Source: Kineococcus mangrovi
GTDB lineage: Bacteria; Actinomycetota; Actinomycetes; Actinomycetales; Kineococcaceae
NCBI RefSeq assembly: GCF_041320705.1
Contig: NZ_JBGGTQ010000004.1
Location: 186,001-250,000, forward strand
Reading direction: 5' to 3'
Length of the DNA stretch: 64,000 nucleotides
Made by a program: the position numbers and the translations under genes. This document shows, one piece after another, positions 4,524 to 34,205 of this stretch (the stretch's first letter is position 1; each line of letters starts with the position of its first letter). Below the pieces are notes generated by a model, which worked only from the letters and a program-made list of their open reading frames with translations, had not been told where the DNA came from and did no database searches.

Positions 4524-5323
4524 CGGCGGTGGTCGGCCGGGTGCACGGTCAGCGGCAGCAGCCGCCGGTGCGCCGACCCCGCCCGCGTCCGCTTCACGAG
4601 CGCCTCGCAGTGCCGGGCCAGCTCCTCGTAGGGCGCGTCGCCGATCATCTCGCGCAGCTCGTTCTCGCAGCTGAGGAACACGGGTCGTTCCCCGACGTGC
4701 GCGGCGGGGTTGCCGGTGCAGTACCAGTCGAGGTCGTGCCCGCCCTCGCCCCAGCCGCGCCGGTCGTACTCGGCGATGCTGACCTCCAGGTACGTCGAGC
4801 CGTCCCCGCGGGTGACGGTCCGGTAGGAGCGCTTCAGCGGCAGCTGCCAGCAGACGTCGGGCTTGTGGGTCAGCGGGTCGACGCCCTCGCGCAGGGCCTG
4901 CAGGTGCAGCGCGCACCCCGCCCCGGCGGGGAACCCCGGCCGGTTGGCGAGGATGCAGCCGCCCTCGTGCACGCGCGTCTTGCGCTCGCCGTCCTCGACC
5001 TCCGTCCAGCCGCCCGCGCGGGCCTCGTCGTGGAACTGCCACACCTCCGGCGTCAGCCGCCGGACGACCTCCGCGACGCGCTCCTCGTCCGCCGCCTCCG
5101 TGAAGTGCGCCCCCAGCGCGCAGCAGCCGACGTCGGGCCGGTCGGCGTAGATCCCCGGGCAGCCGTCGCCGAAGATGCACGTGTAGTCGCTCGTGAGCCA
5201 GGTCAGGTCGACGCGGTACACCGTGTCCGGCTGGTCCTCGGGACCGGTCGCGGCCGCCACGTCCTGCGGGTCGGGGAACTCCAGCCACAGGCGGGCCGTG
5301 TCCAGCGGGGTCTCGACGTCCAC
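4520..5323 (-). CDS. Conserved cysteine-rich protein, unknown function
   Basis: This predicts a soluble 267-residue protein with conserved-looking Cys clusters: [33 protein letters not shown] and [11 protein letters not shown], plus CW and CTGNP further on. The spacing suggests a metal or iron-sulfur centre, as in the DUF3109/YkgJ-type families, but I assign that only tentatively. It is translationally coupled to the following methyltransferase. The GTG start at 5323 has TACGCT (5330-5335) ending 6 nt upstream, which fits a leaderless transcript. Confidence 0.75.
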
Positions 5324-6360: not shown

Positions 6361-7209
6361 GTGGGCGCCGTGGAAGCGACGTCCCCGGCTGCCGGGAACC
6401 TGCCCGAGGGCCCGATCCGGGTGGGTCTGTCGACGACGTGCTCCTACCCGGAGTCGACGACGGCCGCGTTCGAGATCGCCGCGCGCCTGGGCTACGACGG
6501 CGTCGAGGTCCTCGTGTGGACCGACCCCGTCAGCCAGGACGCGACCGCGCTGCGCCGCCTCGCCGAGCACTTCGACGTGCCCGTCCTGTCGGTGCACGCC
6601 CCGACGCTGCTGCTGACGCAGCGCACGTGGGGCCGCGGGGACCCGTGGGGCAAGCTCGAGCGCTCCGCGGAGCTGGCCGCGACCCTGGGGGCGGGCACCG
6701 TGGTCGTGCACCCGCCCTTCCGCTGGCAGCGCGAGTACGCCACCGGTTTCGTCGCCGGGATCGAGGCGCTCGAGGCGCGCACGGGCGTGACGATGGCCGT
6801 GGAGAACATGTTCCCCTGGCGCGCCCGCGGCCGGGAGCTCGTCGCCTACGCCCCCGGCTGGGACCCGACCGGCCTCGGGTACCGCCACCTCACGCTGGAC
6901 TACTCCCACGCCGCGACGTCCGGGCAGGACTGCCTGGAGCTGACGCGCGCCTTCGGCGCCCGGCTCGCCCACGTGCACCTGTGCGACGGCACCGGTTCGG
7001 CCAAGGACGAGCACCTCGTGCCCGGCGACGGCACCCAGCCCGTGGCCGCCGCCCTGGCCGAACTGGCCCGCAGCGGGTTCGGCGGCACGGTCGTCGCCGA
7101 GGTCAACACCCGGCGGGCCCGCGGCCGGGCCGCGCGGGAGGAGTCGCTGGCCCGCACGCTGGCCTTCGCGCGCGAGCACCTCGCGCGGACGCCGGAGGTC
7201 ACGGCGTGA
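6361..7209 (+). CDS. Sugar phosphate isomerase/epimerase family (TIM barrel)
   Basis: This predicts 282 residues of the xylose-isomerase-like TIM-barrel superfamily. Visible signatures are the opening [29 protein letters not shown] with a metal-ligand Glu, [10 protein letters not shown] and AHVHLCDG. The true substrate is unknown. The GTG start lies 1 bp after the ppx stop, so the pair is one transcript. The same gene lies between ppx and proC in mycobacteria. Confidence 0.85.
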
Positions 7210-21244: not shown

Positions 21245-22225
21245 GTGGTGCAGCTGCCCGTCCGTCCCCGCCGCCTGCGTTCCACCCCGGCGATGCGCCG
21301 GCTGGTGACCGACGTGCACCTGCACCCGGGGGACCTCGTCCTGCCCGTCTTCGTGCGGGAGGGCATCACGCAGGACCAGCCCGTCCGCACGCTGCCGGGC
21401 GTCGTGCAGCACACCCGCGCCTCGCTCGCGGCCACGGCGAAGGAGGCCGCGGCGGCCGGGCTCGGCGGGATCATGCTGTTCGGCGTGCCCGAGCGGCTCG
21501 ACGCGACCGGGTCCGGTGCCGACGACCCCGACGGGATCCTCAACGTCGCGCTGCGGGACGTGCGGGACGCGGTGGGCGACGACCTCGTCGTCATGGCCGA
21601 CCTGTGCCTGGACGAGTTCACCGACCACGGCCACTGCGGCGTCCTCGACGACCGCGGTCGCGTCGACAACGACGCCACCCTGGAGCGGTACGCCTCGATG
21701 GCGCTGGCCCAGGCGGCCGCGGGGGCGCACGTGCTGGGGCCCAGCGGGATGATGGACGGCCAGATCGGCGTGCTGCGCGGCGTCCTGGACTCCGGCGGGT
21801 ACGACGACGTCGCCCTGTTCGCCTACGCGGTGAAGTACGCGAGCGGGTTCTACGGCCCGTTCCGCGAGGCCGTGAACTCCCAGCTCAAGGGCGACCGCCG
21901 CACCTACCAGCAGGACCCGGCCGCGAACGTGTCCGAGGCGCTGCGCGAGGTGCGGCTCGACCTCGACGAGGGCGCCGACATGGTGATGGTCAAACCCGGT
22001 CTGCCCTACCTCGACGTGCTGCGCGCGGTCGCGGACGTGGCGGACGTGCCCGTCGCGAGCTACCAGGTGTCGGGGGAGTACGCGATGGTCGAGTTCGCCG
22101 CGCAGGCGGGCGCGATCGACCGCGAGCGGGTGGCGTTGGAGTCGCTGCTGGCGCTGCGGCGGGGTGGGGCGCAGATCGTGCTGAGCTACTGGGCGCTGGA
22201 GGCGGCGCGGGAGTGGCTGGGCTGA
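21245..22225 (+). CDS. hemB: Delta-aminolevulinic acid dehydratase (porphobilinogen synthase)
   Basis: This predicts 326 residues. It condenses two 5-aminolevulinates. The catalytic lysines are in YAVKYASGFYGPFR and MVMVKPGLPYLD. The metal loop reads DLCLDEFTDHGHCGV: two of the three zinc cysteines of the E. coli type remain and the middle one is Asp, so metal use may lean to magnesium. The GTG at 21245 follows GGAGAGG; the GTG at 21248 is an alternative. It is the last gene of rex-hemACDB. Confidence 0.96.
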   Translation: MVQLPVRPRRLRSTPAMRRLVTDVHLHPGDLVLPVFVREGITQDQPVRTLPGVVQHTRASLAATAKEAAAAGLGGIMLFGVPERLDATGSGADDPDGILNVALRDVRDAVGDDLVVMADLCLDEFTDHGHCGVLDDRGRVDNDATLERYASMALAQAAAGAHVLGPSGMMDGQIGVLRGVLDSGGYDDVALFAYAVKYASGFYGPFREAVNSQLKGDRRTYQQDPAANVSEALREVRLDLDEGADMVMVKPGLPYLDVLRAVADVADVPVASYQVSGEYAMVEFAAQAGAIDRERVALESLLALRRGGAQIVLSYWALEAAREWLG

Positions 22226-22264
22226 TCGTCCTGACGGTTCGCTCGGAGGGGTGAGATTAGACCC

Positions 22265-22326
22265 TCATCCTCACGAAGATCCCCTTCATCCTAAATATGG
22301 GATGAGAAGTTTCATATCGAGGATGA
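22265..22326. repeat. Operator-like array A (TCATCC/GGATGA), symmetric, four half-sites
   Basis: TCATCC stands at 22265 and 22286, and GGATGA at 22300 and 22321. The central palindrome TCATCC-N8-GGATGA (22286-22305) is flanked by one outer half-site on each side, each exactly 21 bp away, so the array is fully symmetric. It lies in the 86-bp gap between the convergent ends of hemB and the AlbA_2-type gene, reaching a few codons into the latter. Array B, 1810 bp away, shares 33 of 50 aligned bases. Confidence 0.6.
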
Positions 22327-24063
22327 TGAGTTGGTGACTGTGCTGGTGAGGCGGTAGCGGGTGTTCCGGCTTCGTGGCGGAGAAGACGTCTCGATGAGTC
22401 CATCCCTCTTGAGGAGACGCAACCAGTGCTCGACGGTCTTGGTGCCCAGACCCAGCTCCTCGACCACCTCGGCCTTGCTGAGCTCCCGGCGGAGCTGCAG
22501 GAGCTCCACGATCTGCCGGCCGCGATCGGGGTGCGGGCGTCGTCCGCCTGGGCCGCTCGTCCGGGCGAGCTGCGACAGGGCGTAGGAACTCCCCCGGCGG
22601 GTGCCGTGCTGCTCGACCAGCTCTCGTGCGACGAGGTCCTGGAGTTCGTACGTCGCGGTACGGCTGTCGGTCACGCCGGTCAGTCGCCGGTAGGTGCTGT
22701 TGTCCAGGCGGTCTCCCCGTCGCATCGCGGCGAGAGCGAGTCGTTGGGTGTCACGGAGGCGGTCAGTGGTCAACCGCCCCAGCCAGCGGATGGTGTCGTC
22801 GTCGAGCAGCGTGTGGTTGGGGAACTTGACGCTGAAGGTGGTCACCCCGTCCGTGAAGGACGGCAGTCCCATGCCCGCTCGACGGAGAGCCGCGACCATC
22901 GTCCGCACCCCGGAGCCCCGGTTCTCGCAGACGACACCGCCGTGGGGCAGCGGGACGTCCTCGAGGATGCGCAGCAGGCGTGCGTTGCGGGCCGACGAGC
23001 GGCCGTCGTCGCCGAGGTGCGCGATGTCCACCGCACCGAACAGGCCACCCGGGTTCTTGATGACGAGGCGGTCGGGGTACATCTCCACCTGCACCTGGGT
23101 ACCGCGGGATCCAGAGCTGAGGTCGCGGTGGACGAGGGCGTTGACGATCACCTCGCGCAGGGCTGTCTCCGGGAAGTCGGGGACGTCGACCCGTCCTGCT
23201 CCCTGCACCACAGCTCGGCGGGCCGAGTTGCGCTGGACGGCGGTGAGCACCGCCAAGACCATCTCGGGGATCGAGCCGTCGGCCGCCACGTTGTCCAGGA
23301 ACCGGACCCCGCCGGAGTCGTCCGCTCCGGCCGGTGTGGGGTAGCTGACGAAGGTCGTGTTGACCTGCGGCAGGAACTGCTGCGGGTACCTCCCCAGGGC
23401 CAGGAGACCGGCGATGGTCGGGCGGGGCGTCCCGTCGGCCTCGACCGCGAGAACCCCCGTCATGGTCAGCACCGTGTGGTCGTCCACGCCCGTGAAGGCT
23501 CGTGCGCTCCGCGCTCGAACCCGGCGGAGGTAGGCCGCGACCACGTCCTCATCGAGGTCGGTGACCGCTGCGCCGGGCACGACCTCCGTGTCGAACGTGG
23601 GTTGACCACGTTCGGCCACGAGTTGCTGCACTTCCTCGGCGGTCAGTCGGCGGTCGCTCTCCCCGACACGCAGGTAGCAGCCGCGCACCATTCCCTGCGC
23701 GGAGACGTAGCACGGCTTCTCGCTGCGGGGGAGCTCCTCGACGTCGACGATCACCACCGAGCGTCCGGCGTCGGTCTCGATGCTCACGGTCGGGCGCAGC
23801 GGAGGCGTGAAGCGGTCGGCGCACCAGGAGACGACATCGGCTTGCGTCTTGGCGGCATCGGCCACCCCCACGACGTCGAACGACTGGTTCTCCACGATGC
23901 CGAGCAGCAGCGTCCCGCCCCCGGGGGTGTTGGCGAAGGAGCAGAGCGTCTCGAGGGCGTCCTTGGGGACGGCGTCGCGAGCGGCTTTGGCCTCGAGGGC
24001 GCCTGACTCCGCTCGGTGCTCACGGAGGTCCGCCAGGAGCGTCGGCAGACGTGCATCGACCAC
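22312..24063 (-). CDS. AlbA_2/Schlafen-type regulator with GHKL ATPase-like and winged-helix domains
   Basis: This predicts 583 residues. Residues about 15-125 are an AlbA_2 (Schlafen-like) domain (ESGALEAKAA, LCSFANTPGGGTLLLGI). The middle has a HATPase_c_4-type region (ALREVIVNALVHRDLSS, VIKNPGGLF, CENRGSGVRTMV). The C-terminus has winged-helix segments (SKAEVVEELGLGTKTVEHWLRLL). The family includes transcriptional regulators and defence-linked proteins. The GTG at 24063 is chosen because ATGs further up lie in or before the predicted promoter; GAGGAC is its ribosome site. It is divergent from hsdM, which suggests control of the restriction island. Confidence 0.78.
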   Translation of the reverse strand: MVDARLPTLLADLREHRAESGALEAKAARDAVPKDALETLCSFANTPGGGTLLLGIVENQSFDVVGVADAAKTQADVVSWCADRFTPPLRPTVSIETDAGRSVVIVDVEELPRSEKPCYVSAQGMVRGCYLRVGESDRRLTAEEVQQLVAERGQPTFDTEVVPGAAVTDLDEDVVAAYLRRVRARSARAFTGVDDHTVLTMTGVLAVEADGTPRPTIAGLLALGRYPQQFLPQVNTTFVSYPTPAGADDSGGVRFLDNVAADGSIPEMVLAVLTAVQRNSARRAVVQGAGRVDVPDFPETALREVIVNALVHRDLSSGSRGTQVQVEMYPDRLVIKNPGGLFGAVDIAHLGDDGRSSARNARLLRILEDVPLPHGGVVCENRGSGVRTMVAALRRAGMGLPSFTDGVTTFSVKFPNHTLLDDDTIRWLGRLTTDRLRDTQRLALAAMRRGDRLDNSTYRRLTGVTDSRTATYELQDLVARELVEQHGTRRGSSYALSQLARTSGPGGRRPHPDRGRQIVELLQLRRELSKAEVVEELGLGTKTVEHWLRLLKRDGLIETSSPPRSRNTRYRLTSTVTNSSSSI

Positions 24064-24074
24064 GGATCGAGTCC

Positions 24075-24133
24075 TCATCCTCAGAGCCAGTGCCTTCATC
24101 CCAATCATAGGATGAGGACGATGCTGAGGTCAC
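24075..24133 (-). promoter_or_regulatory. Operator-like array B over the regulator promoter
   Basis: TCATCC stands at 24075 and 24096 and GGATGA at 24110, so TCATCC-N8-GGATGA (24096-24115) again has an outer half-site 21 bp away. On the minus strand the 8-nt spacer contains TATGAT (24104-24109), a near-ideal -10, with GTGACC (24128-24133) 18 bp upstream as a possible -35. A protein on the palindrome would cover the -10, so repression is likely. hsdM starts 66 bp away on the other strand. Confidence 0.6.
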
Positions 24134-24181
24134 GGGCCTGGCTACCGTGTGTGACAGCAACTCGACGATGGGGGCGCAGCA

Positions 24182-26149
24182 GTGACGCAGGTCGAAGGCT
24201 TCGGGGACAAGGTCGGCTTCATCTGGTCGATCGCCGACCTGCTTCGTGGGGACTACCGGCCCCACGAGTACGGGCAGGTCATCCTGCCGTTGACGGTGCT
24301 GCGCCGCCTCGACTGCGCTCTCGCCCCGACGAAGACGAAGGTCCTCGAACGTGACGCCGCGCTCACGGTGCAGAACAAGGACCGCATCCTCAAGGGGGCG
24401 GCGAAGCAGCCGTTCTACAACACGAGCCCTCTGGACTTCACCCGTCTCCTCGACGACCACGAGAACCTCGCTGCAAACCTCCTGCAGTACGCCTCGGCGT
24501 TCTCGGCGGGCACGGCCGAGGTGCTGGAGAAGTACAACTTCGCCAACCACGTGGAGCGCCTCGACGCGGCGGGGCTCCTGTACCAGGTGGTGAGCCGGTT
24601 CCACGACGTGGACCTCGGGCCGGACGCGGTGCCGAACGAGGCGATGGGCTACATCTTCGAGGAACTGCTGCGGCGGTTCAACGAGATGAGCAACGAGACC
24701 GCGGGTGAGCACTTCACCCCGCGCGAGGTCATCAAGCTCATGGTCAACATCCTCTTCTCCGAGGACGACGAGGCGCTGCGGGGCAGCGCTCCGGTCCGGT
24801 CGATGTTCGACCCCGCGTGCGGCACGGGCGGCATGCTCATCGGCGGGCAGGAGCACCTGCACGACCTGAACGAGAACGCCACCCTGGAGATCTTCGGGCA
24901 GGAGCTCAACGGCGAGACGTGGGCCATGGCCCGTTCGGACCTGATGATCAAGCAGCAGGAACCGGAGAGCATCCAGCTGGGCAACAGCCTGTCCGCGGAC
25001 GCGTTCGGAGGCCGCACGTTCGACTACCTGCTGGCCAACCCGCCGTTCGGGGTCGACTGGAAGCGGATCCAGAAGACCATCACGGACGAGCAGGCCAACC
25101 TGGGGATGGCCGGCCGCTTCGGGGTGGGCCTGCCGCGGGTCTCCGACGGCAGCCTGCTGTTCCTGCAGCACATGATCTCGAAGATGAAGCCCGTGGAGAA
25201 GGGCGGGAGCCGGCTGGCGATCGTCTTCTCCGGATCCCCCCTGTTCTCCGGCGGCGCCGGGTCGGGGGAGTCGGAGATCCGCAAGTGGATCATCGAGAAC
25301 GACTGGCTGGAGGCCGTCGTCGGCCTGCCGGACCAGTTGTTCTACAACACCGGGATCTCGACGTACTTCTGGGTCCTGACGAACCGCAAGGCGCCCGAAC
25401 GCAAGGGCAAGGTCCTGCTGCTGGACGCGCGCGAGTCGTGGACGAAGATGCGCAAGTCCTTGGGCGACAAGCGCAAGTACGTCAGCGACGAGCAGATCGC
25501 CGACGTGACCCGGCTCTACCACGACGCGCTGGCGGGCGACCTGAGCGACGAGCGGGTGCGGGTGTTCGCCAACGAGGACTTCGGGTACCAGCGCATCACG
25601 GTCGAGCGTCCCCTGCGACGGAGGTGGGACGTGACCGAGGAGGCCGTCGCCGCCGTCGAGATCGCCAAGCCGTTCCTCAAGGCGGACATCGACCACGACG
25701 CGATCCGCGGGGTGCTGCGGGGGCTGGTCGGGACCTCCGAGACGACCGAAGCCGGCTTGTGGAAGGTGTTCTGGAGGGAGGCCTCCGCGGCGGGGTTGCC
25801 GACCCTCGCGGCGCCGGTGCGCAAGGCGATCCTCGCGGCGTGCGCCGTCCCGGACCCGGAGGCCGAGCCGCAGCTGGACGGCAAGAAGCAGGTGCTGCCC
25901 GACCCTGACCTGCGGGACAACGAGAACGTGCCGTTGACCGAGGAGATCGGCGAGTACGTGGCGCGGGAGGTGCTGTCGCACGTGCCGGACGCCTGGGTGG
26001 ACGAGAGCAAGACGCGGGTGGGATACGAGATCCCGTTCACGCGGTTCTTCTACGAGTACGTGCCGCCACGTCCGCTGGAGGAGATCGACGCGGAAATCCT
26101 TCAAGTGGAGGTCGAGATCCAGCGGCTGCTGACGGGGGTGGCGCGATGA
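24182..26149 (+). CDS. hsdM: Type I restriction-modification system, methyltransferase subunit
   Basis: This predicts 655 residues. It methylates adenine in the site chosen by HsdS. The helical N-terminal domain is followed by the SAM motif FDPACGTGGMLIGG near 208 and the catalytic NPPF near 285 (LANPPFGVDW), which marks N6-adenine transfer. GEHFTPREVIKLMV precedes them as usual. The C-terminal tail ends in a coiled helix that binds HsdS. The GTG follows GGGGG by 7 nt. Its stop overlaps hsdS by 4 bp. Confidence 0.95.
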   Translation: MTQVEGFGDKVGFIWSIADLLRGDYRPHEYGQVILPLTVLRRLDCALAPTKTKVLERDAALTVQNKDRILKGAAKQPFYNTSPLDFTRLLDDHENLAANLLQYASAFSAGTAEVLEKYNFANHVERLDAAGLLYQVVSRFHDVDLGPDAVPNEAMGYIFEELLRRFNEMSNETAGEHFTPREVIKLMVNILFSEDDEALRGSAPVRSMFDPACGTGGMLIGGQEHLHDLNENATLEIFGQELNGETWAMARSDLMIKQQEPESIQLGNSLSADAFGGRTFDYLLANPPFGVDWKRIQKTITDEQANLGMAGRFGVGLPRVSDGSLLFLQHMISKMKPVEKGGSRLAIVFSGSPLFSGGAGSGESEIRKWIIENDWLEAVVGLPDQLFYNTGISTYFWVLTNRKAPERKGKVLLLDARESWTKMRKSLGDKRKYVSDEQIADVTRLYHDALAGDLSDERVRVFANEDFGYQRITVERPLRRRWDVTEEAVAAVEIAKPFLKADIDHDAIRGVLRGLVGTSETTEAGLWKVFWREASAAGLPTLAAPVRKAILAACAVPDPEAEPQLDGKKQVLPDPDLRDNENVPLTEEIGEYVAREVLSHVPDAWVDESKTRVGYEIPFTRFFYEYVPPRPLEEIDAEILQVEVEIQRLLTGVAR

Positions 26150-27426
26150 AGACGCAGCCGCTGCGCCTTGCTGCTGAAGTGACTCTTGGGCGAATGCGTA
26201 ACCCGTCCAGTGAAACAGGCCCGAATCAGACTCCTTACCTTCGAGCTGCGAATGTGCGGGACGGCGAACTCGTTCTCAAAGACATCAAGATGATGCACTT
26301 CGACCAAGCGGAGCAGGTCCGGTACTCGCTCCGGTCAGGAGACGTCCTAGTTACGGAGGCGTCGGGTAGTCGAGCTCAAGTCGGGCAGACCGCGATGTGG
26401 GACGCATCCGTTCCCGGTGTCGCGTTCCAGAACACGCTTGTGCGGCTGCGGGCGAGACCAGGTACACATCCGCGTTTCCTGTACTGGTGGTCGCGTCATG
26501 CGCATGGATCGGGACTATACGGTGCTACAGCCCAGGGCTTGGCGATCTGGCATCTGAGTTCTGAGCGCGTCAGGCCGTTGCCTTTTCCGTGTTTGTCGAT
26601 ATTTCAGCAAGGCCGTACTGCTGACTTCCTCGACGTCCAGGTTGGCCTTGTCGATCAGGCAATCCGAATGCGACACAAGCAGCGTATTAAAATTGCACAG
26701 CGTAGCGACACGCGAGTGTCCTGGCTATTGACGAACCCGCGCTTGCCGGGGGGCGGCTCGCGGGCAAACTATCCGTGGCTGAGGGATGACGGCGCCAGTT
26801 TCATGAAGCTCGCATGGGTTGCTGACCTTCAGTCAGGTCTGACTATTGATGCCCAACGTGCAGGTTCCGTCGAATACCCGTACCTTTCGGTGGCCAATGT
26901 GCAAAGCGACCGACTGGACCTCTCGGTAGTCAAAACCGTCAAGCTCGATCCGCGGGTCGCCGCAAGATTCATGCTCAGGTCGGGGGACGTCCTGGTGACC
27001 GAAGGAGGCGACCTCGACAAGCTGGGGCGGGGGACGGTGTGGCGAGGAGAGATCGATCCGTGCCTACACCAGAACCACGTCTTCGCTCTGCGCCCTCACC
27101 CTGACCGGCTCCTCCCCGAGTACCTGGCTGCACTGACGCGAACTCACCACGCGCGACGGTACTTCGAGATCACGGGCAGTCGAAGCACCAACCTGGCGTC
27201 CACGAACAGCAGCAAAGTCCTCGGTTTTCGCTTCCCGCTCCCTGACGTCGCCAGACAGCGACAGATCCTCGATGAGCTGCAACTAGCGGAACAGGACGAC
27301 GCCGCGCTCGACGCGGCACTCGAACGGCAGATCGCCTTGCTCCAGGAACGCAAGCAAGCCCTCATCACCGCCGCCGTCACCGGCCAGTTCGACGTCACCA
27401 CTGCCCGAAAGGTCTCGACGACATGA
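26146..27426 (+). CDS. hsdS: Type I restriction-modification system, specificity subunit
   Basis: This predicts 426 residues with two target-recognition halves. Each begins with an AANV/VANV-type strand (TPYLRAANVRDGEL near 28; YPYLSVANVQSDRL near 244) and has RSGDVLVTE. The central conserved helix (FLDVQVGLVDQAIRMRHKQR) and the C-terminal one (ALERQIALLQERKQALITAAVTG) form the coiled-coil spacer. About 26150-26750, the first recognition domain, is clearly less GC-rich than its neighbours, a sign of exchange. Specificity cannot be read from sequence. Confidence 0.93.
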   Translation: MKTQPLRLAAEVTLGRMRNPSSETGPNQTPYLRAANVRDGELVLKDIKMMHFDQAEQVRYSLRSGDVLVTEASGSRAQVGQTAMWDASVPGVAFQNTLVRLRARPGTHPRFLYWWSRHAHGSGLYGATAQGLAIWHLSSERVRPLPFPCLSIFQQGRTADFLDVQVGLVDQAIRMRHKQRIKIAQRSDTRVSWLLTNPRLPGGGSRANYPWLRDDGASFMKLAWVADLQSGLTIDAQRAGSVEYPYLSVANVQSDRLDLSVVKTVKLDPRVAARFMLRSGDVLVTEGGDLDKLGRGTVWRGEIDPCLHQNHVFALRPHPDRLLPEYLAALTRTHHARRYFEITGSRSTNLASTNSSKVLGFRFPLPDVARQRQILDELQLAEQDDAALDAALERQIALLQERKQALITAAVTGQFDVTTARKVSTT

Positions 27427-30400
27427 GCGTCCACTCCGAGGCCGCGTTCGAAGCCACCATCGAGGCCCACCTCCTCGCCCACGACTGGCACCGAGGTGAC
27501 CCGAGCGCATACCGTCGCGGCCTCGGCCTGGACACGGGGGAGCTGTTCACCTTCATCGGCGCTACCCAGGCCGCGAAGTGGGCGAAGGTCGTCGCGCAGT
27601 ACGCCGACGTCGACACGGCGCAGAAGCAGTTCGCGCAGTGGGTGGCGAGCGAACTCAGCACCCGCGGCGTCATCGACGTCCTCCGCCACGGGGTGAAGAA
27701 CAAGGGGCAGCTGATCAAGATCGCCCAGTTCAAGCCCGCTCACGGCATCACCGCGAGCCTGCAGCAGGCCTACGCCGCCAACCGCCTCACGGTGACGCGC
27801 CAGGTCCACCACTCCGAGTCGCACCCGCACGACTCCCTCGACCTGCTGCTCTCCCTCAACGGCGTCCCCGTCGCGACGGCCGAGCTGAAGAACCCGTTGA
27901 CCGGTCAGGGCGTGGAGCAGGCGAAGAAGCAGTACCGGGAGCAGCGGTACCCGACCGACCTCATCTTCGCTAAGCGGACGGTCGTGCACTTCGCCGTCGA
28001 CCCCGACCTCGTCTTCCTCTCCACGACCGTCGGTCCGCAGGCGTACTTCCTACCCTTCAACCAGGGCTCGAACGGTCCGGGCCGGCACGGGGGACAGGGC
28101 AACCCGTCCTCCACCACCGGCTACCGCACCCGCTACCTGTGGGAGCAGGTCTGGCAGCGCGACGCCTGGCTGGACCTCCTGCACCGCTTCGTCCACGTCG
28201 AGCACGAACCCGGCACGAGCAAGAAGGCCGCGAAGACCACGACGATCTTCCCCCGCTACCACCAGTGGGACGTCGTGAAGAAGCTCGACGCCCACGCCTC
28301 CACCCACGGGCCGGGCCGGGCGTACCTGCTGCAGCACTCGGCGGGCTCGGGGAAGTCCAACAGCATCGCGTGGCTCGCCCACCGGCTCTCCACCCTGCAC
28401 ACCGCCACCGACGCGAGTTCGCTGCAGGGGGCGGCGAAGAACCTCGGGCCGGACACGAAGGTCTTCCACAAGGTCGTCGTCGTCACCGACCGGGTCGTCC
28501 TGGACCGGCAGCTGCAGGAGACCATCGCGCAGTTCGACCACACCCCCGGCGTCGTCGAACGCATCGACAAGAACTCCCAGCAGCTCGCGGACGCGCTCAC
28601 CGGGTCCACGGCGCAGATCGTCATCACCACCCTGCAGAAGTTCCCCGTCGTCAAGAAGGCCGTCGGGGCGGTCGGCGGCGGCAAGCGGTACGCCGTCATC
28701 GTCGATGAGGCGCACTCCTCGCAGTCGGGGGAGGCCGCGAAGGGGCTGAAGTCCGTGCTCGGGACCGGCCCCGACGCGCTGGCCGCCGCCGAAGCGGCGG
28801 ACGCGGCGGAGGAGCAGGCGAGCGACCCGGAGGACGCGCTGAGCGCGGACGTCGGTGACCTCCTCCTGGCCAGCGCACGTGACCGGGGCCGACAGGCCAA
28901 CCTCTCGTTCTTCGCCTTCACCGCCACCCCGAAGCAGAAGACGCTGGAGCTGTTCGGCGAGAAGATCCCCGACCCGACCAGGGACAGTGGGTTCCGCCAC
29001 GAGGCGTTCCACCTGTACTCGATGCGGCAGGCCGTCGACGAGGGGTTCATCCTCGACGTGCTCGCCAACTACGTCACCTACACGACGTACTACCGCCTCG
29101 CCAACGGTGCCCAGACCGTCGAGGGGTCCGCCGGGAGCGACCCTGAGGTCGACAAGCGCAAGGCCAGCCAGAAGCTCGCCCGGTTCGTGAGCCTGCACCC
29201 CTCCAACCTGGCCCAGAAGGCCGAGATCATCGTGGAGCACTTCCGCACGGTCACCGCGGGCAAAATCGGCGGTCGCGCCAAGGCGATGGTGGTCACCCGA
29301 TCCCGCCTGCACGCCGTGCGCTACCACCAGGCGATCGAGAAGTACATCGCCGGCAAGGGGTACCAAGACGTCAAGGCCCTCGTCGCGTTCTCCGGGAAGG
29401 TCGAAGACCCCGACGTCCCCGGCGAGGAGTGGACCGAACCCCGGCTGAACCGCGACCGCGCCGGCAACCCCATCCCCGAGACGGAGACCGCGGCCCGCTT
29501 CAAGGGCGAGGACCCGTTCGACGAGTCCGACTACCAGGTGCTCATCGTCGCCGAGAAGTACCAGACCGGTTTCGATGAACCCCTGCTCCACACCATGTAC
29601 GTCGACAAGAAGCTGGACGGGGTCAAGGCTGTCCAGACCCTGTCCCGGCTCAACCGGACGACACCTGGCAAGGAGGGGACCTTCGTCCTCGACTTCGCCA
29701 ACGACGCCGAGGACCTCAAGGAGGCTTTCCGGCCGTTCTTCGAGACGACCTGGACCGAACCGACCGACCCGAACCTGCTCTACACGCTGCAGCAGCGCAT
29801 CGAGAGCCACGCGATCGTCCACCCCGCCGACGTCAGCACCTTCGTCGCGGCCCTCCTCAAGGGCGAACTGAGCGGCAACGAAGTCCTGTACGCCACGACC
29901 GACGCCGCGCTCGAACGCTACCGGGCCATGCCGGAACCAGCGGACCAGGAGGACTTCCGCACCGCACTGCGCGACTTCGTCCGCATGTACGCCTTCCTCG
30001 GGCAGGTCATCACCTGGCACGAGGTGGACCTCGAGGAGCTCTTCTACTACGGCAGCGCCCTCCTCACGCGTCTGCCGAAGCTGGAGGGGGAGGACGGTGA
30101 CGTCGACGTCAGCGACGCCGCCACCTTGACCCACCTGCGCACGCAGATCACCGGCGAACACGACGTGTCCCTCGCCGCCGGGGACGGAGAGGACGGCCTC
30201 CCCCCGGCCACGGGCGGCGGGGCGGGAGCCCAGAACGACCCGGAGAAGGTGCGGCTGTCCGAGATCATCGCCGCCCTGAACTCCAAGTTCGGGCTCGACC
30301 TCGGGGAGGCGGACACCCTCCTCGTCGAGCAGTACGTGGTGCAGAGCACTCTGGACCCGGAGATGCGTGCGGTGGCGATGGAGAACTCCGAGGAGAACTT

Positions 30401-30566
30401 CGGGTACCGCTTCGACAAGCGGGTCGACGACTTCGTCATCGACCGGCAGAACGCCAACGAGGCGCTGTTCACCAAGTACTTCGACGACCCGGCCTTCCAG
30501 ACGGTGCTCGTGGAGTTCATGCGCAAGGAGGCCTACCGGCGCATCCGAGGTGGTGAGGCGGCGTGA
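27423..30566 (+). CDS. hsdR: Type I restriction endonuclease, motor subunit
   Basis: This predicts 1047 residues. The nuclease domain has DSLDLLLSLNGVPVATAELKN near 135-155 (PD-ExK core). The SF2 motor follows: Walker A HSAGSGKSNS near 304, VIVDEAHSSQ near 427, FFAFTATPKQKTLELFG, and QTLSRLNRTTPGK as motif VI. The complex translocates DNA and cuts unmodified DNA far from the site. The start overlaps hsdS by 4 bp, so hsdMSR is one operon with all three genes intact. Confidence 0.95.
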   Translation: MSVHSEAAFEATIEAHLLAHDWHRGDPSAYRRGLGLDTGELFTFIGATQAAKWAKVVAQYADVDTAQKQFAQWVASELSTRGVIDVLRHGVKNKGQLIKIAQFKPAHGITASLQQAYAANRLTVTRQVHHSESHPHDSLDLLLSLNGVPVATAELKNPLTGQGVEQAKKQYREQRYPTDLIFAKRTVVHFAVDPDLVFLSTTVGPQAYFLPFNQGSNGPGRHGGQGNPSSTTGYRTRYLWEQVWQRDAWLDLLHRFVHVEHEPGTSKKAAKTTTIFPRYHQWDVVKKLDAHASTHGPGRAYLLQHSAGSGKSNSIAWLAHRLSTLHTATDASSLQGAAKNLGPDTKVFHKVVVVTDRVVLDRQLQETIAQFDHTPGVVERIDKNSQQLADALTGSTAQIVITTLQKFPVVKKAVGAVGGGKRYAVIVDEAHSSQSGEAAKGLKSVLGTGPDALAAAEAADAAEEQASDPEDALSADVGDLLLASARDRGRQANLSFFAFTATPKQKTLELFGEKIPDPTRDSGFRHEAFHLYSMRQAVDEGFILDVLANYVTYTTYYRLANGAQTVEGSAGSDPEVDKRKASQKLARFVSLHPSNLAQKAEIIVEHFRTVTAGKIGGRAKAMVVTRSRLHAVRYHQAIEKYIAGKGYQDVKALVAFSGKVEDPDVPGEEWTEPRLNRDRAGNPIPETETAARFKGEDPFDESDYQVLIVAEKYQTGFDEPLLHTMYVDKKLDGVKAVQTLSRLNRTTPGKEGTFVLDFANDAEDLKEAFRPFFETTWTEPTDPNLLYTLQQRIESHAIVHPADVSTFVAALLKGELSGNEVLYATTDAALERYRAMPEPADQEDFRTALRDFVRMYAFLGQVITWHEVDLEELFYYGSALLTRLPKLEGEDGDVDVSDAATLTHLRTQITGEHDVSLAAGDGEDGLPPATGGGAGAQNDPEKVRLSEIIAALNSKFGLDLGEADTLLVEQYVVQSTLDPEMRAVAMENSEENFGYRFDKRVDDFVIDRQNANEALFTKYFDDPAFQTVLVEFMRKEAYRRIRGGEAA

Positions 30567-30900
30567 ACGCGCCCCGGATCCGCTACCAGGACGTCGTGCC
30601 CTACGACGTCCCGCCTTCCTCGACCTCCTGACCGGGCCCACCGGCGGCCACCTCGCACTGCCCCACTCCGTCCACTGGGGGCCGAGCCGCGTCGTGGACC
30701 TCGACGACCCTTCCGAGCTGGTCTGGGCCTACCAGGCCGTGGTGCGCGAGGGAACGGTGCGGCAGCAGCGCGAGCTCCTCGACGCCGCCACGCTGGTCCG
30801 CGTGTGGCGCGACCTGACCCTCCCCGTGCGCTGCCGGACCCTGTGGGAGGAAGCGTTCCCCGTGTTGGTGTGGACCGCCTCGGCGGACGTGGTCGGTTGA
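30563..30900 (+). pseudogene. Frameshifted small gene preceding an AbiEii-like toxin remnant
   Basis: A GTG overlapping the hsdR stop opens MNAPRIRYQDVVPYDV, then the frame closes at 30628. The next frame continues without a start as FLDLLTGPTGGHLALPHSV and on to VRCRTLWEEAFPVLVW, ending at 30900. Joining the two needs loss of one base near 30604-30612. The protein type (LTGPTGG...LP, YDLDDP-like, WEEAFP) resembles the partner gene found before actinobacterial nucleotidyltransferase toxins. That role is from memory of gene context, not from a domain hit. Confidence 0.6.
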
Positions 30901-31208
30901 TGGACCTGCTCGCGCACCAGCGGTACGTCACGCGCCTGCTGCTCGCAGCGACCGCCGGCAAGGGGTTCGTCCTGGCGGGGTCGGGTGCCATCCGCGAGCA
31001 CGCGATGATCGACCGGCCCACCGAGGACGTGGACCTCTTCACCGATTCCCTGGACGCCGACGGGTTCGACCGTCGTCTGCTCGCCGAGCAGTCGCGTCTC
31101 GCAGTGACCCTCGCGCCGCGACGGGTCGAGCAGCACGGCACCGGTGAGGTGGAGCTGCCGGCCGTCCAGGACCGGCTCGGAGCGTGGGCTCGCGCGCTGC
31201 GCGGCTGA
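30900..31208 (+). pseudogene. Truncated AbiEii-like nucleotidyltransferase toxin
   Basis: This gives 102 residues starting one base inside the previous stop (TGATG). KGFVLAGSGAIREHAMIDRP plus TEDVDLFTD is the G-S and DxD core of AbiEii/DUF1814-type nucleotidyltransferases. Full-length members have 200 or more residues; here the sequence after residue 60 turns into short unrelated text (TLAPRRVEQHGTGEVELP) and stops. The toxin is probably inactive. Together with the frameshifted gene before it, it forms a dead toxin-antitoxin pair at the end of the restriction island. Confidence 0.65.
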
Positions 31209-31247
31209 CGCGCCGCCTGTCCGGCGGAGAAACCCTCCGGGCTCCGC

Positions 31248-33659
31248 TCACTCCAGCGGGGTCACCGTCACCACCATCGCCACGTCCGCGACGACGGGGT
31301 GACCACCGTCGTACAGCGCCCCGGCCCGCACCGTCGGCTCGCTCAGCACCACCGCGTCCTCGTAGAAACCCCCGAACAGCACGGTCAGGTGGACCGGGCT
31401 CCGGTGCACGACGGCGTGGGCGAGTTGGCGGACGTCGCCCTCGGGCAGGAGTTCGGCCCGCTTGCGCAGCGAGCGGGCGAGTTTCTCCACGGCGGGGTCG
31501 GGGGCCGGCGGAGCGCCGGCGCGCAGCCGCAGCGCGTGCGCGACCGGGTCGCGGTCCACGTCCTGCGCGCCCGCGACGTCCGGGGAGGCGTCCGGCCCGC
31601 CGGGAGCGGCGGGTTCGTCGAGGTGGGGCCGGGCCCGCGTCACCGCGTGGCCGACGGGTTCTCCGGCGAGGTTCTCCTCCCGCGGCAGGTACCCCGCCGC
31701 GCGCACGCCGGCGAGCACGTCGGCCGGCGCGGCGGCCGAGGCCAGCACGGTGGGGGCCAGCGCGACCAGGGCGAACCGGCGCAACCCGGAGTGGGTGCGG
31801 AGTTCGGCCAGCAGGGCTTCCTCACCGACCAGGACGGTGCCCGCGGGCCGGATCCCGACCTTGCCGTAGCGGCGGCCGACGTCGCGGGCGAGGTACTCCA
31901 GCGTCTGCGGCAGCGGTTTGTCGCTGAGTTCGCGCAGGCCGTCCAGGAGGTCCTCGACGGTGTGCCCGGCGTCGAGGGCGGCCCGGAAGGTGGCGTCGGT
32001 GAACCGCCAGGAGTTCGCCGCGCCGCGGGCCTCGCGCTCCGCGACGGTGTCCAGCACGTCGACGACGTGGGCGGCGGGGTCGCCGGCGACCAGGACGGTC
32101 AGGTCGGAGCCGAAGCTGGCGCGGGCGTTCACGGCGGGCAGGAGCAGGTCGGCGTCGCGGACCAGGGCGTCCCGGTCGTCCCCGACGAGGGCGTGGCCGG
32201 CGCCGCTGAGGGTGCCCACGGCCACGGCGCCGACGAGTTCGGCCTCGGCCAGCACGTCGGCGACGTCGTCGGCGTCGTGGGGTTCCAGAGCGCGAGGCCG
32301 GGCCCAGGCGAGGTGCGCAGAGAGGTCCCCGGCGGAGGTGACGCCCCGTCCGGCGGGCAGCCGGCCCAGGTGGCGCAGCAGTTCCCGGCGGATCTCGGCG
32401 GCCCGCGGCGCGGTCGTCCCCCCGCCGATCGCGGCGGGCCTGTCGTCCAGGTCGCGGTCGCGCACGACGAGGGTCGGCCAGTCCCACCAGGTGCGCAGCA
32501 GGTCGGCGTAGCGCTCGGCCGGCGGACGCCGCCGCCACTGCGGAGCGCGGTGGGAGGCGGTGATGGAGGTCTCACCCGCCCGGGCCAGCAGACCCAGCTG
32601 GTTCGCGGCGGTCAGGGCGAACCGCACGAGCCGGGCGTCGGTGGCCAGGGTCTTGGCGGTCCGGCCGATCTCCCGGGCCCCGATGGAGCCGTCCTTGCGG
32701 GTGGGCACGGGGGCGCGGGCGAGGAGCTCGACGACGGCCGAGACGGCGGTGAGGGTCTCGACCGCCGCGCCGGCCGCGGCGCGGTGGGCGGTCTCGGGGG
32801 CGACCGGGACGGTGGGCAGGTCGGGGCCGCGGACGGGGAGGGGCACGCGCACCGAGCCCTCCAGCAGGGCGAGGGCCACCTCCCGGGGCAGGACGCGGGC
32901 ACCCTGGGAGAGGTCCCAGGCGAGCCCGTGCTCCAGCGCCCAGGCCACGGCGTCGGCCGTCGCCCTGCGGTCCGGTCGGAACTGCTCGTGGGGTCGCAGG
33001 ACGGCCTCGGCCAGTTCCCGCAACGCGGCACCGGTGCGCGCGTCCGCGCGGGCGGTCAGCCGCCGGACCAGGTCGGGGTCGTTCAGGACGTTCCGCACCC
33101 GGTGGACGGCACCGGCGGGGTCGGTGGGCAACCCCCAGGCGCGCAACCGCCGCGCCAGGTCCGGCGCGTCGGTGCGTTCCAGCAGGTCGTCCAGGGGGAT
33201 GCCGCCCAGCAGCGGGACCAGCACCCGCTGGGCGCCCGGGGTCGTGCGCAGCCCGTCGGGGTGCGCCGGGGTGGGGGCGGGCACCACGAGCCCGACCCGC
33301 AGCAGGTCCTCGACCCGGGCCCGCACCGCACCGGCGGGGTCGTCCACGGGACCGTCGGGGGCCAGCAGTGCGACCAGCCGGCCGAGCCGGGCGCCACGAC
33401 CCAGGAACGAGAGAGCTTCCAGGACGACCGAGGTGGGGGCGTCGAGCCGGTCGACGGCCTCCGCCACGTACCCGGGGGCGGCCAGCCGCTGCGCGAGGTC
33501 GTCCAGGTCGGCCGGGGCTGCTCCGCGCAGCAGTTCCGGCCGGTCGGTCAGCAACCCGACCAGCGCCTCCTCGCTCAGGGAACGGAGGTGGTCGCGGACC
33601 AGGTCCTGCTCGTCCGGTCCGGTGGCGGCGACGTCGGGGAGGGGCTCGTGGGACGGCAC
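31248..33659 (-). CDS. Helicase-associated (XPB/Ssl2-type helicase_C_3) domain protein
   Basis: This predicts 803 residues without Walker motifs. Long helical repeats (LRSLSEEALVGLLTDRPELL, VLEALSFLG) are followed by a C-terminal part with YLARDVGRRYGKVGIRPAGT and LGRLVALLAPDG-like winged-helix elements. It matches the large actinobacterial proteins annotated as helicase C-terminal or XPB N-terminal-like domain proteins, usually near a DNA-repair helicase gene. Their role is unproven. The GTG at 33659 has TAGTTT (33666-33671) ending 6 nt upstream, so a leaderless start. Confidence 0.82.
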   Translation of the reverse strand: MPSHEPLPDVAATGPDEQDLVRDHLRSLSEEALVGLLTDRPELLRGAAPADLDDLAQRLAAPGYVAEAVDRLDAPTSVVLEALSFLGRGARLGRLVALLAPDGPVDDPAGAVRARVEDLLRVGLVVPAPTPAHPDGLRTTPGAQRVLVPLLGGIPLDDLLERTDAPDLARRLRAWGLPTDPAGAVHRVRNVLNDPDLVRRLTARADARTGAALRELAEAVLRPHEQFRPDRRATADAVAWALEHGLAWDLSQGARVLPREVALALLEGSVRVPLPVRGPDLPTVPVAPETAHRAAAGAAVETLTAVSAVVELLARAPVPTRKDGSIGAREIGRTAKTLATDARLVRFALTAANQLGLLARAGETSITASHRAPQWRRRPPAERYADLLRTWWDWPTLVVRDRDLDDRPAAIGGGTTAPRAAEIRRELLRHLGRLPAGRGVTSAGDLSAHLAWARPRALEPHDADDVADVLAEAELVGAVAVGTLSGAGHALVGDDRDALVRDADLLLPAVNARASFGSDLTVLVAGDPAAHVVDVLDTVAEREARGAANSWRFTDATFRAALDAGHTVEDLLDGLRELSDKPLPQTLEYLARDVGRRYGKVGIRPAGTVLVGEEALLAELRTHSGLRRFALVALAPTVLASAAAPADVLAGVRAAGYLPREENLAGEPVGHAVTRARPHLDEPAAPGGPDASPDVAGAQDVDRDPVAHALRLRAGAPPAPDPAVEKLARSLRKRAELLPEGDVRQLAHAVVHRSPVHLTVLFGGFYEDAVVLSEPTVRAGALYDGGHPVVADVAMVVTVTPLE

Positions 33660-33689
33660 GGCCAGAAACTACGCGACACCGGGAGCGCT

Positions 33690-34078
33690 CCTCCGTCGGC
33701 GGGCCGGGAGCCCCCGGCGACGACCGCCGTGCCCGGGCCGTCGCCGAGCTGGCTGCCGACGTGGTTCCCGGTGCAGTCGTCGACGTGGTCGTGGCCGCAG
33801 GACACGCCCTCGACGTCACCGTGCTCGGGGGCGGCGTGGAGGAGGCCGGGGTCGAACCGGGCGGTGTGCTCCCGCTCGTCGCGCTCGCCCACGGTGCCGT
33901 GCTCGACGACCGCCGCCGCGTGCGCCTCCTGCGTCGACCCGGTGGGGGAGCCGAACCGCAGGCGGCGGAACCCCCGCAGCGGGACGCGGAAGAACACGAA
34001 CCCGGGTCGTTCGGCGTCGAGGACGCGCTCGATGAGCTGGACCGCGCGCACGTCCGTGCGAGGGCCGTGCTCGGGATC
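33690..34078 (-). pseudogene. Remnant of a metallophosphoesterase C-terminal domain
   Basis: On the minus strand one frame has strong G/C third positions and reads VQLIERVLDAERPGFVFFRV, FGSPTGSTQEA, FDPGLLHAA, and GDVEGVSCGHDHVDDCTGN. This resembles the end of calcineurin-like phosphatases (FVFFHIPLPE, TGxxQE, GDVxGVxxGHDH). The His of FFHxP is Arg here and the N-terminal half is missing. No start codon with a sensible context is present, and the frame runs into the next gene. I read it as a decayed gene; boundaries are approximate. Confidence 0.5.
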
Positions 34079-34079
34079 T

Positions 34080-34146
34080 CCAGGACGACCGGGGTGGGGC
34101 GTCGAGCCGCTCGAACGCCTCCACCACGTACCCGGGGGCAGCCACG
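34080..34146 (-). repeat. Diverged copy of a segment of the helicase-like gene
   Basis: These 67 bases match 33419-33486 inside the helicase-like gene at roughly nine bases in ten, with a one-base deletion. On the minus strand the parent reads LAAPGYVAEAVDRLDAPTS and the copy VAAPGYVVEAFERLDAP before the shift. It lies at the upstream border of the phosphatase remnant, so the region 33660-34205 is assembled from gene pieces. Confidence 0.6.
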
Positions 34147-34205
34147 GTCCGAACCCGTGCTCGCGAGGCGTGGACGCCGCGCGGTGGCCGGACCACACTC
34201 GGGGG

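Follow-up and report, generated by a model that had tools for sequence, protein, structure and literature searches.

The Schlafen-like gene of Kineococcus mangrovi considered here carries a repeat array at each end and lies divergent from a type I restriction-modification operon, which raises the question of what the arrays serve. In the window, the whole 64,000-nucleotide stretch of DNA analysed, two exact matches to TCATCC-N8-GGATGA flank the gene, TCATCCTAAATATGGGATGA at 22286-22305 and TCATCCCAATCATAGGATGA at 24096-24115, just as placed in the initial annotation. Array A, at the 3' end of the gene (22265-22326), is made up of TCATCC at 22265-22270 and 22286-22291 and GGATGA at 22300-22305 and 22321-22326, and array B (24075-24115) of TCATCC at 24075-24080 and 24096-24101 and GGATGA at 24110-24115. 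The extra TCATCC reported 21 bp outside each palindrome (starting at 22265 and 24075) and the extra GGATGA 21 bp on the other side of A (22321) were confirmed, and the offset of 1810 bp and the equal orientation of the two arrays were reproduced. The half-sites are the same in A and B and the spacers differ; the similarity claimed for the arrays is real, with 34 identical bases in the best 50 at the 1810-bp offset where 33 had been counted. Array A sits between convergent genes and its last GGATGA (22321-22326) overlaps the final codons of the Schlafen-like gene. With 0 mismatches allowed, TCATCC-N8-GGATGA occurs at these two places and at no other in the 4.36 Mb of the Kineococcus genome (4,355,532 bases, 23 contigs), and three of the six genome-wide occurrences of TCATCC-N13..17-TCATCC were at arrays A and B.

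The gene (22312-24063, minus strand) is predicted from Pfam, a homologue-inferred GTG start and an AlphaFold model to encode a protein of 583 aa with the domain order Schlafen/AlbA_2, GHKL (HATPase_c_4), wHTH1 and wHTH2. Its start is likely the GTG at 24063, downstream of array B, because 63 of 82 sequences (the window counted) have an in-frame start codon at the same place, at a distance of exactly 66 nt upstream of the residue 28 codon. Pfam identified SLFN_AlbA_2 at 56 bits (cut-off 25.3) and HATPase_c_4 at 78.4 bits (cut-off 26), the two domains that define the family. The model, built with 48 sequences (mean pLDDT 88.2, pTM 0.71), has a secondary structure that fits two C-terminal winged helix-turn-helix domains at approximately 438-496 and 514-572, with the predicted wHTH2 recognition helix at 541-553 in P0005 numbering, which is P0001 numbering minus 5. 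An ArsR/SmtB-type profile matched residues 516-573 weakly, at 21.8 bits and below its cut-off of 55. Model matches of the protein to pAgo and SIR2-Ago covered shared domains and were set aside, and the best matches by both fold and sequence were the structures 3lmm (DIP2311) and 2kyy.

In the alignment of 81 sequences, which counts the window and keeps near-identical rows, E24, K26, E304, N308, R313 and G385 were invariant, position 19 was D or E throughout, and position 58 was E in 79 sequences and D in two. The spacing of D/E19, E24 and E/D58 in the sequence resembles the acidic metal-site pattern of SLFN13. The conserved residues would preserve a Schlafen-like acidic core and the ATP site of a GHKL domain. 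Because defence-associated relatives have been described and homologues occur inside BREX-type operons, the protein is probably a defence effector with a DNA-binding tail of its own and built-in autoregulation. Of two distant homologues, one has brxC and pglX on its two sides and the other is flanked by a DUF6079 gene and a methyltransferase gene.

The predicted promoter of the Schlafen-like gene, GTGACC-18-TATGAT (24104-24133, minus strand), is a consensus match and the sole promoter-like site in the region 22200-24260. Its -10, TATGAT, falls within the spacer of array B as the initial annotation had suggested, and operator-like repeats, as judged from sequence, thereby lie over what is predicted to be the gene's own promoter. 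Since the half-sites are repeated and helically phased over that promoter, the cooperative binding that had been proposed appears plausible.

Conservation of the half-sites beside homologues had been set beforehand as the point on which the proposal should stand or fall, and this expectation failed, as not one of the 40 homologous loci examined, 39 of them distinct because L050 equals L004, had the exact motif. Conservation of the exact motif was accordingly rejected as the test of function, and many of the homologues carry other repeats in the same place. When 74 upstream regions, made non-redundant and at most 150 nt long, were examined, 29 had direct repeats at a lag of 12, relative to a shuffle mean of 0.47 and maximum of 2, and control windows elsewhere in the same loci gave 3.1 per 74. 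Lags of 19, 20 and 24 were raised too (10, 13 and 13 of the 74 regions). In 50 of the 74 regions the de novo 8-base half-site score exceeded every one of 40 shuffles, and in 24, including that of the window, it did not. Within the 50 resolved arrays, 54 of 131 distances between same-orientation neighbours were 12 bp and 25 of 131 were 19-22 bp, the 21-bp spacing of the window falling in this second peak, and the median half-site position was -60 from the start. A single orientation switch, with one block each way, occurred in 34 of the 46 mixed arrays (14.3 expected, maximum 25 in 2000 shuffles). The layout therefore recurs across the family and the half-site differs in most lineages. Unlike half-sites were also found among paralogues of one genome (the window gene and L016; L084, L092 and L095; L087 and L094; L068 and L081). 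The paralogues in the genome of the window are L016 on contig C14, in which GTAGCATG occurs three times at a spacing of 7 bp, and L011 on contig C2, with nothing above shuffles in its upstream region.

Turnover of the half-site could be followed between eight Amycolatopsis genes, encoding proteins 86-93% identical in the five pairs measured, which form two half-site types two bases apart, CTTCGCCAC in four genes and CTTAGACAC in the other four. Both substitutions were present in four of the five copies of each gene of the second type, and the turnover is not complete, because the fifth copy, at -64, retains the CTTCGCC form (without any change in L038 and L040, with one or two changes in L036 and L034). 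Seven residue differences were fixed between the two types, none of them in wHTH1, and two of them concern the wHTH2 recognition helix, P0001 position 545 immediately ahead of it and position 550 within it; beyond these seven, 14 columns elsewhere in the protein had disjoint residues between the types. A distant Actinopolyspora gene (L039) combines the RTVSRW helix with the CTTCGCCAC half-site, both as in the first Amycolatopsis type.

Among protein pairs below 65% identity, half-site similarity was 6.73 of 9 where at least three of the four exposed helix residues were shared (28 pairs) and 5.88 of 9 where at most one was shared (827 pairs), in a test of 47 sequences that omitted L077, L090, L093 and L095, with half-sites resolved, for poor alignment. 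Only 0.4% of random four-column sets did as well as these four helix positions, which had been picked after the earlier Amycolatopsis comparison and co-variation scans and which ranked 3 of 462 windows of equal pattern, behind those at 338 and 342. In the first sliding-window scans P0001 343-355, 99-113 and 145-151 stood above the helix, which ranked 7 of 551 at width 7, with column 550 at rank 5 of 516. Relatedness is not fully removed from these co-variation statistics, and the link that they suggest between half-site similarity and the wHTH2 recognition helix is good but not proof.

It is probable, in our judgement, that the arrays are a private, co-evolving autorepressor operator of the Schlafen-GHKL-wHTH protein that they flank. 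From the computed arrays, their family-wide layout, the half-site turnover, its statistical tie to the helix and the conserved acidic and ATP-site residues, we infer a mechanism of binding and repression in which the protein would use its second C-terminal winged helix to contact the half-sites, cooperative binding would place several molecules on one face of the DNA, and the bound protein would shut its own promoter, the -10 of which is in the middle of array B. Each family member would have its own operator spelling, changing in most array copies along with the recognition helix, and this private spelling would insulate paralogues within one genome from one another. The protein being a probable nuclease effector of phage defence, tight autorepression would hold a costly product low, with ATP binding by the GHKL domain as the likely switch. 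Array A may act as an auxiliary site that strengthens repression via looping, and the divergent hsdM might be affected at its distance of 66 bp, though it would not be the reason for the array.

The silencing and release of defence genes with costly products are poorly known, and the rule offered here, of own array and own helix, covers a family now named anti-phage Schlafens. A natural test is provided by the Amycolatopsis pair with its two-base difference. An operator of a given member should be findable via its own repeats rather than a common motif, and a search for one conserved motif, the check suggested in the initial annotation, would have missed the arrays. A bolder version, which we regard as rather unlikely, would see here a family-wide, private and self-diversifying operator code of Schlafen defence effectors, in which most copies change their half-site together with the helix, the geometry stays constant and several suicide effectors are insulated in one cell; the array-bound, ATP-gated protein would then perhaps be a sensor, freed as active effector once phage infection upsets the array or alters the ATP state.

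The role of array A was considered by a search of each locus for further copies of the half-site particular to it. A cluster near the stop codon was found in three of 54 loci, namely the window, L086 and L087, and a second array of this type is thus uncommon and not unique. L039, L077 and L091 each had a second upstream cluster, L026 and the near-identical L056 had a cluster of two sites 1.4 kb upstream, and the available DNA of 46 of the 54 loci had no second cluster. In L086, dense GCTCTCGA-type copies fill the first 200 bases past the stop, about 300 bases before the next gene. Array A, flanked by convergent genes and overlapping the final codons of one of them, is for that reason unlikely to serve a promoter, and we propose an auxiliary loop site as its most natural reading. 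That it is the DNA-loop partner of array B is compatible with the autorepressor operator and would agree with the equal half-sites and equal orientation at both ends despite the differing spacers, as well as with the further stop-codon and second upstream arrays. Against this, most loci have no second cluster, and in L086 and L087 the gene that follows the 3' array points the same way, so that the array could belong to it. We hold the partnership of A and B as a tentative possibility, and looping between paired arrays as put forward in the initial annotation was graded weak since an array near the stop was found in so few loci.

On the other side of array B is the restriction-modification operon, on the plus strand, consisting of hsdM (24182-26149; Pfam and PADLOC), hsdS (26146-27426; PADLOC, with Pfam Methylase_S at 21.2 bits, just below the cut-off of 22) and hsdR (27423-30566; Pfam and PADLOC, with NCBIfam hsdR at 170 bits, below the cut-off of that model). 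The 66 bp between the array B palindrome and the hsdM GTG at 24182 were measured as first given, and control of hsdMSR had been proposed from the outset. Under this explanation the protein would be a dedicated regulator of the type I system that binds array B, coordinates its own expression with that of hsdMSR and silences both through a loop to A. The closeness of array B on the divergent side favours it, and L049 also has a homologue that has HsdM upstream and HsdR downstream of it. A precedent is RptR, which represses a type I restriction-modification island from a repeat array (PMC12255303). However, besides the window, L049 was the only one of 34 loci with up to 5 kb of flank (several end early at contig ends) with HsdM/HsdR matches, and the role in hsdMSR control was graded weak for that reason. 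Clear arrays adjoin ordinary genes in L020, L031, L045, L047 and L048, and a simple consensus scan of 22200-24260 gave no promoter-like site on the hsdM strand. We therefore consider a dedicated restriction-modification regulator unlikely.

By Pfam, eight of ten chosen neighbours from seven other loci were ordinary, including a glycosyltransferase, methyltransferases, EAL/GGDEF, glycosyl hydrolase 92, APS kinase/ATP-sulfurylase and FxsA, and two, both in L027, were defence-like or of no clear kind (one REase_MTES_1575 and one DUF4357). No consistent partner gene emerged from a PADLOC scan of 69 of the 108 listed neighbours, nor among 25 of the 46 matched families, of which the top one occurred in two members. 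With HsdM/HsdR so rarely adjacent and the neighbours mostly ordinary, the array seems to serve the Schlafen gene first, and an effect on hsdM by proximity is possible. By eye, an hsdR-start-like stretch precedes the Schlafen-like gene in L049 (about 4811-4900) and another follows it in L027 (about 6710-6860), giving the impression that the gene had entered at the hsdR start.

Arrays at both ends of a gene might also mark where a mobile cassette ends or recombines, and the family does occupy unrelated neighbourhoods, with copies near an integrase in a Gordonia phage and a Streptococcus satellite phage. The sequence after hemB is variable among Kineococcus relatives (window 22226-34180 compared with L114 2743-3607), and G009 retains an hsdR remnant matching window positions 29546-29613 and 30272-31068. 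In the ten relatives compared, though, the DNA after hemB differed and offered no clean boundary or empty site, the arrays of the family lie upstream of the start and only in the three loci named above near the stop too, those of the window have the same orientation at both ends, and no recombinase domain was found in the protein by Pfam or in the model, all of which makes a cassette very unlikely.

Chance repeats or sequence composition would explain that the upstream region with array B alone was not above its shuffles (half-site score 5, shuffle maximum 6) and had no repeat lag over threshold, and also the behaviour of the loose pattern with up to two mismatches, which has two palindrome places in the window and none besides and is weak by itself because 27 of 100 window shuffles also reach two. 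This explanation is hardly credible given that the best repeated word found de novo in A and B together had a score reached by 0 of 200 shuffles at lengths of 6, 7, 8 and 9, that the genome holds two exact places and no more, and that the signal is family-wide in lag-12 repeats, half-site scores and orientation blocks.

As the initial annotation had supposed, no description of the motif for AlbA_2 regulators, or of operator arrays for the Schlafen/AlbA_2-GHKL-wHTH family, was found in the literature searched (bioRxiv preprints excepted and with few subscription papers). Bacterial proteins with a Schlafen RNase, a minimal histidine kinase and a wHTH have the same domain order as the window protein and a defence association, as here with homologues inside BREX-type operons; the part of PMC12839542 available describes the effector and its neighbourhood and not an operator array or turnover as found here. 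TrlG of Photorhabdus has the same AlbA_2 and HATPase_c_4 domains and, according to PMC7554251, is required for growth arrest at 36 C and is therefore likewise a costly product, but is encoded in a three-gene operon with a separate small putative regulator. The closest functional parallel is RptR, which binds three direct repeats over the -10 (PMC12255303); it is a small alpha-helical protein in contrast to the enzyme-like protein of 583 aa here, and its site TAGCTA is conserved in Gammaproteobacteria whereas the half-site here differs between lineages. TAGCTA is absent from arrays A and B. The nearest structures, DIP2311 (3lmm) and 2kyy, are by their titles structural-genomics entries, and no functional paper on them was found in the literature searched. 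Direct repeats near 12 bp are also found in tubC, where the wHTH protein TubR binds cooperatively to iterons; the role of TubR is in plasmid partition.

Nine homologues were from plasmids or phages. The half-site scores of L102, L103, L105 and L106 exceeded all of 100 shuffles, those of L100 and L101 were reached by five of 100, and no array stood out from 100 shuffles in L104, L107 and L108, the last two being BREX-embedded. The integrase-associated copies of the Streptococcus satellite phage (L106) and the Gordonia phage (L105) bear repeats of their own, GTGTGCGA in two 12-bp pairs and ACTCTAAA, respectively. Two Chlorohelix plasmids carry homologues (L100 and L102) that adjoin parA/parB-type genes.
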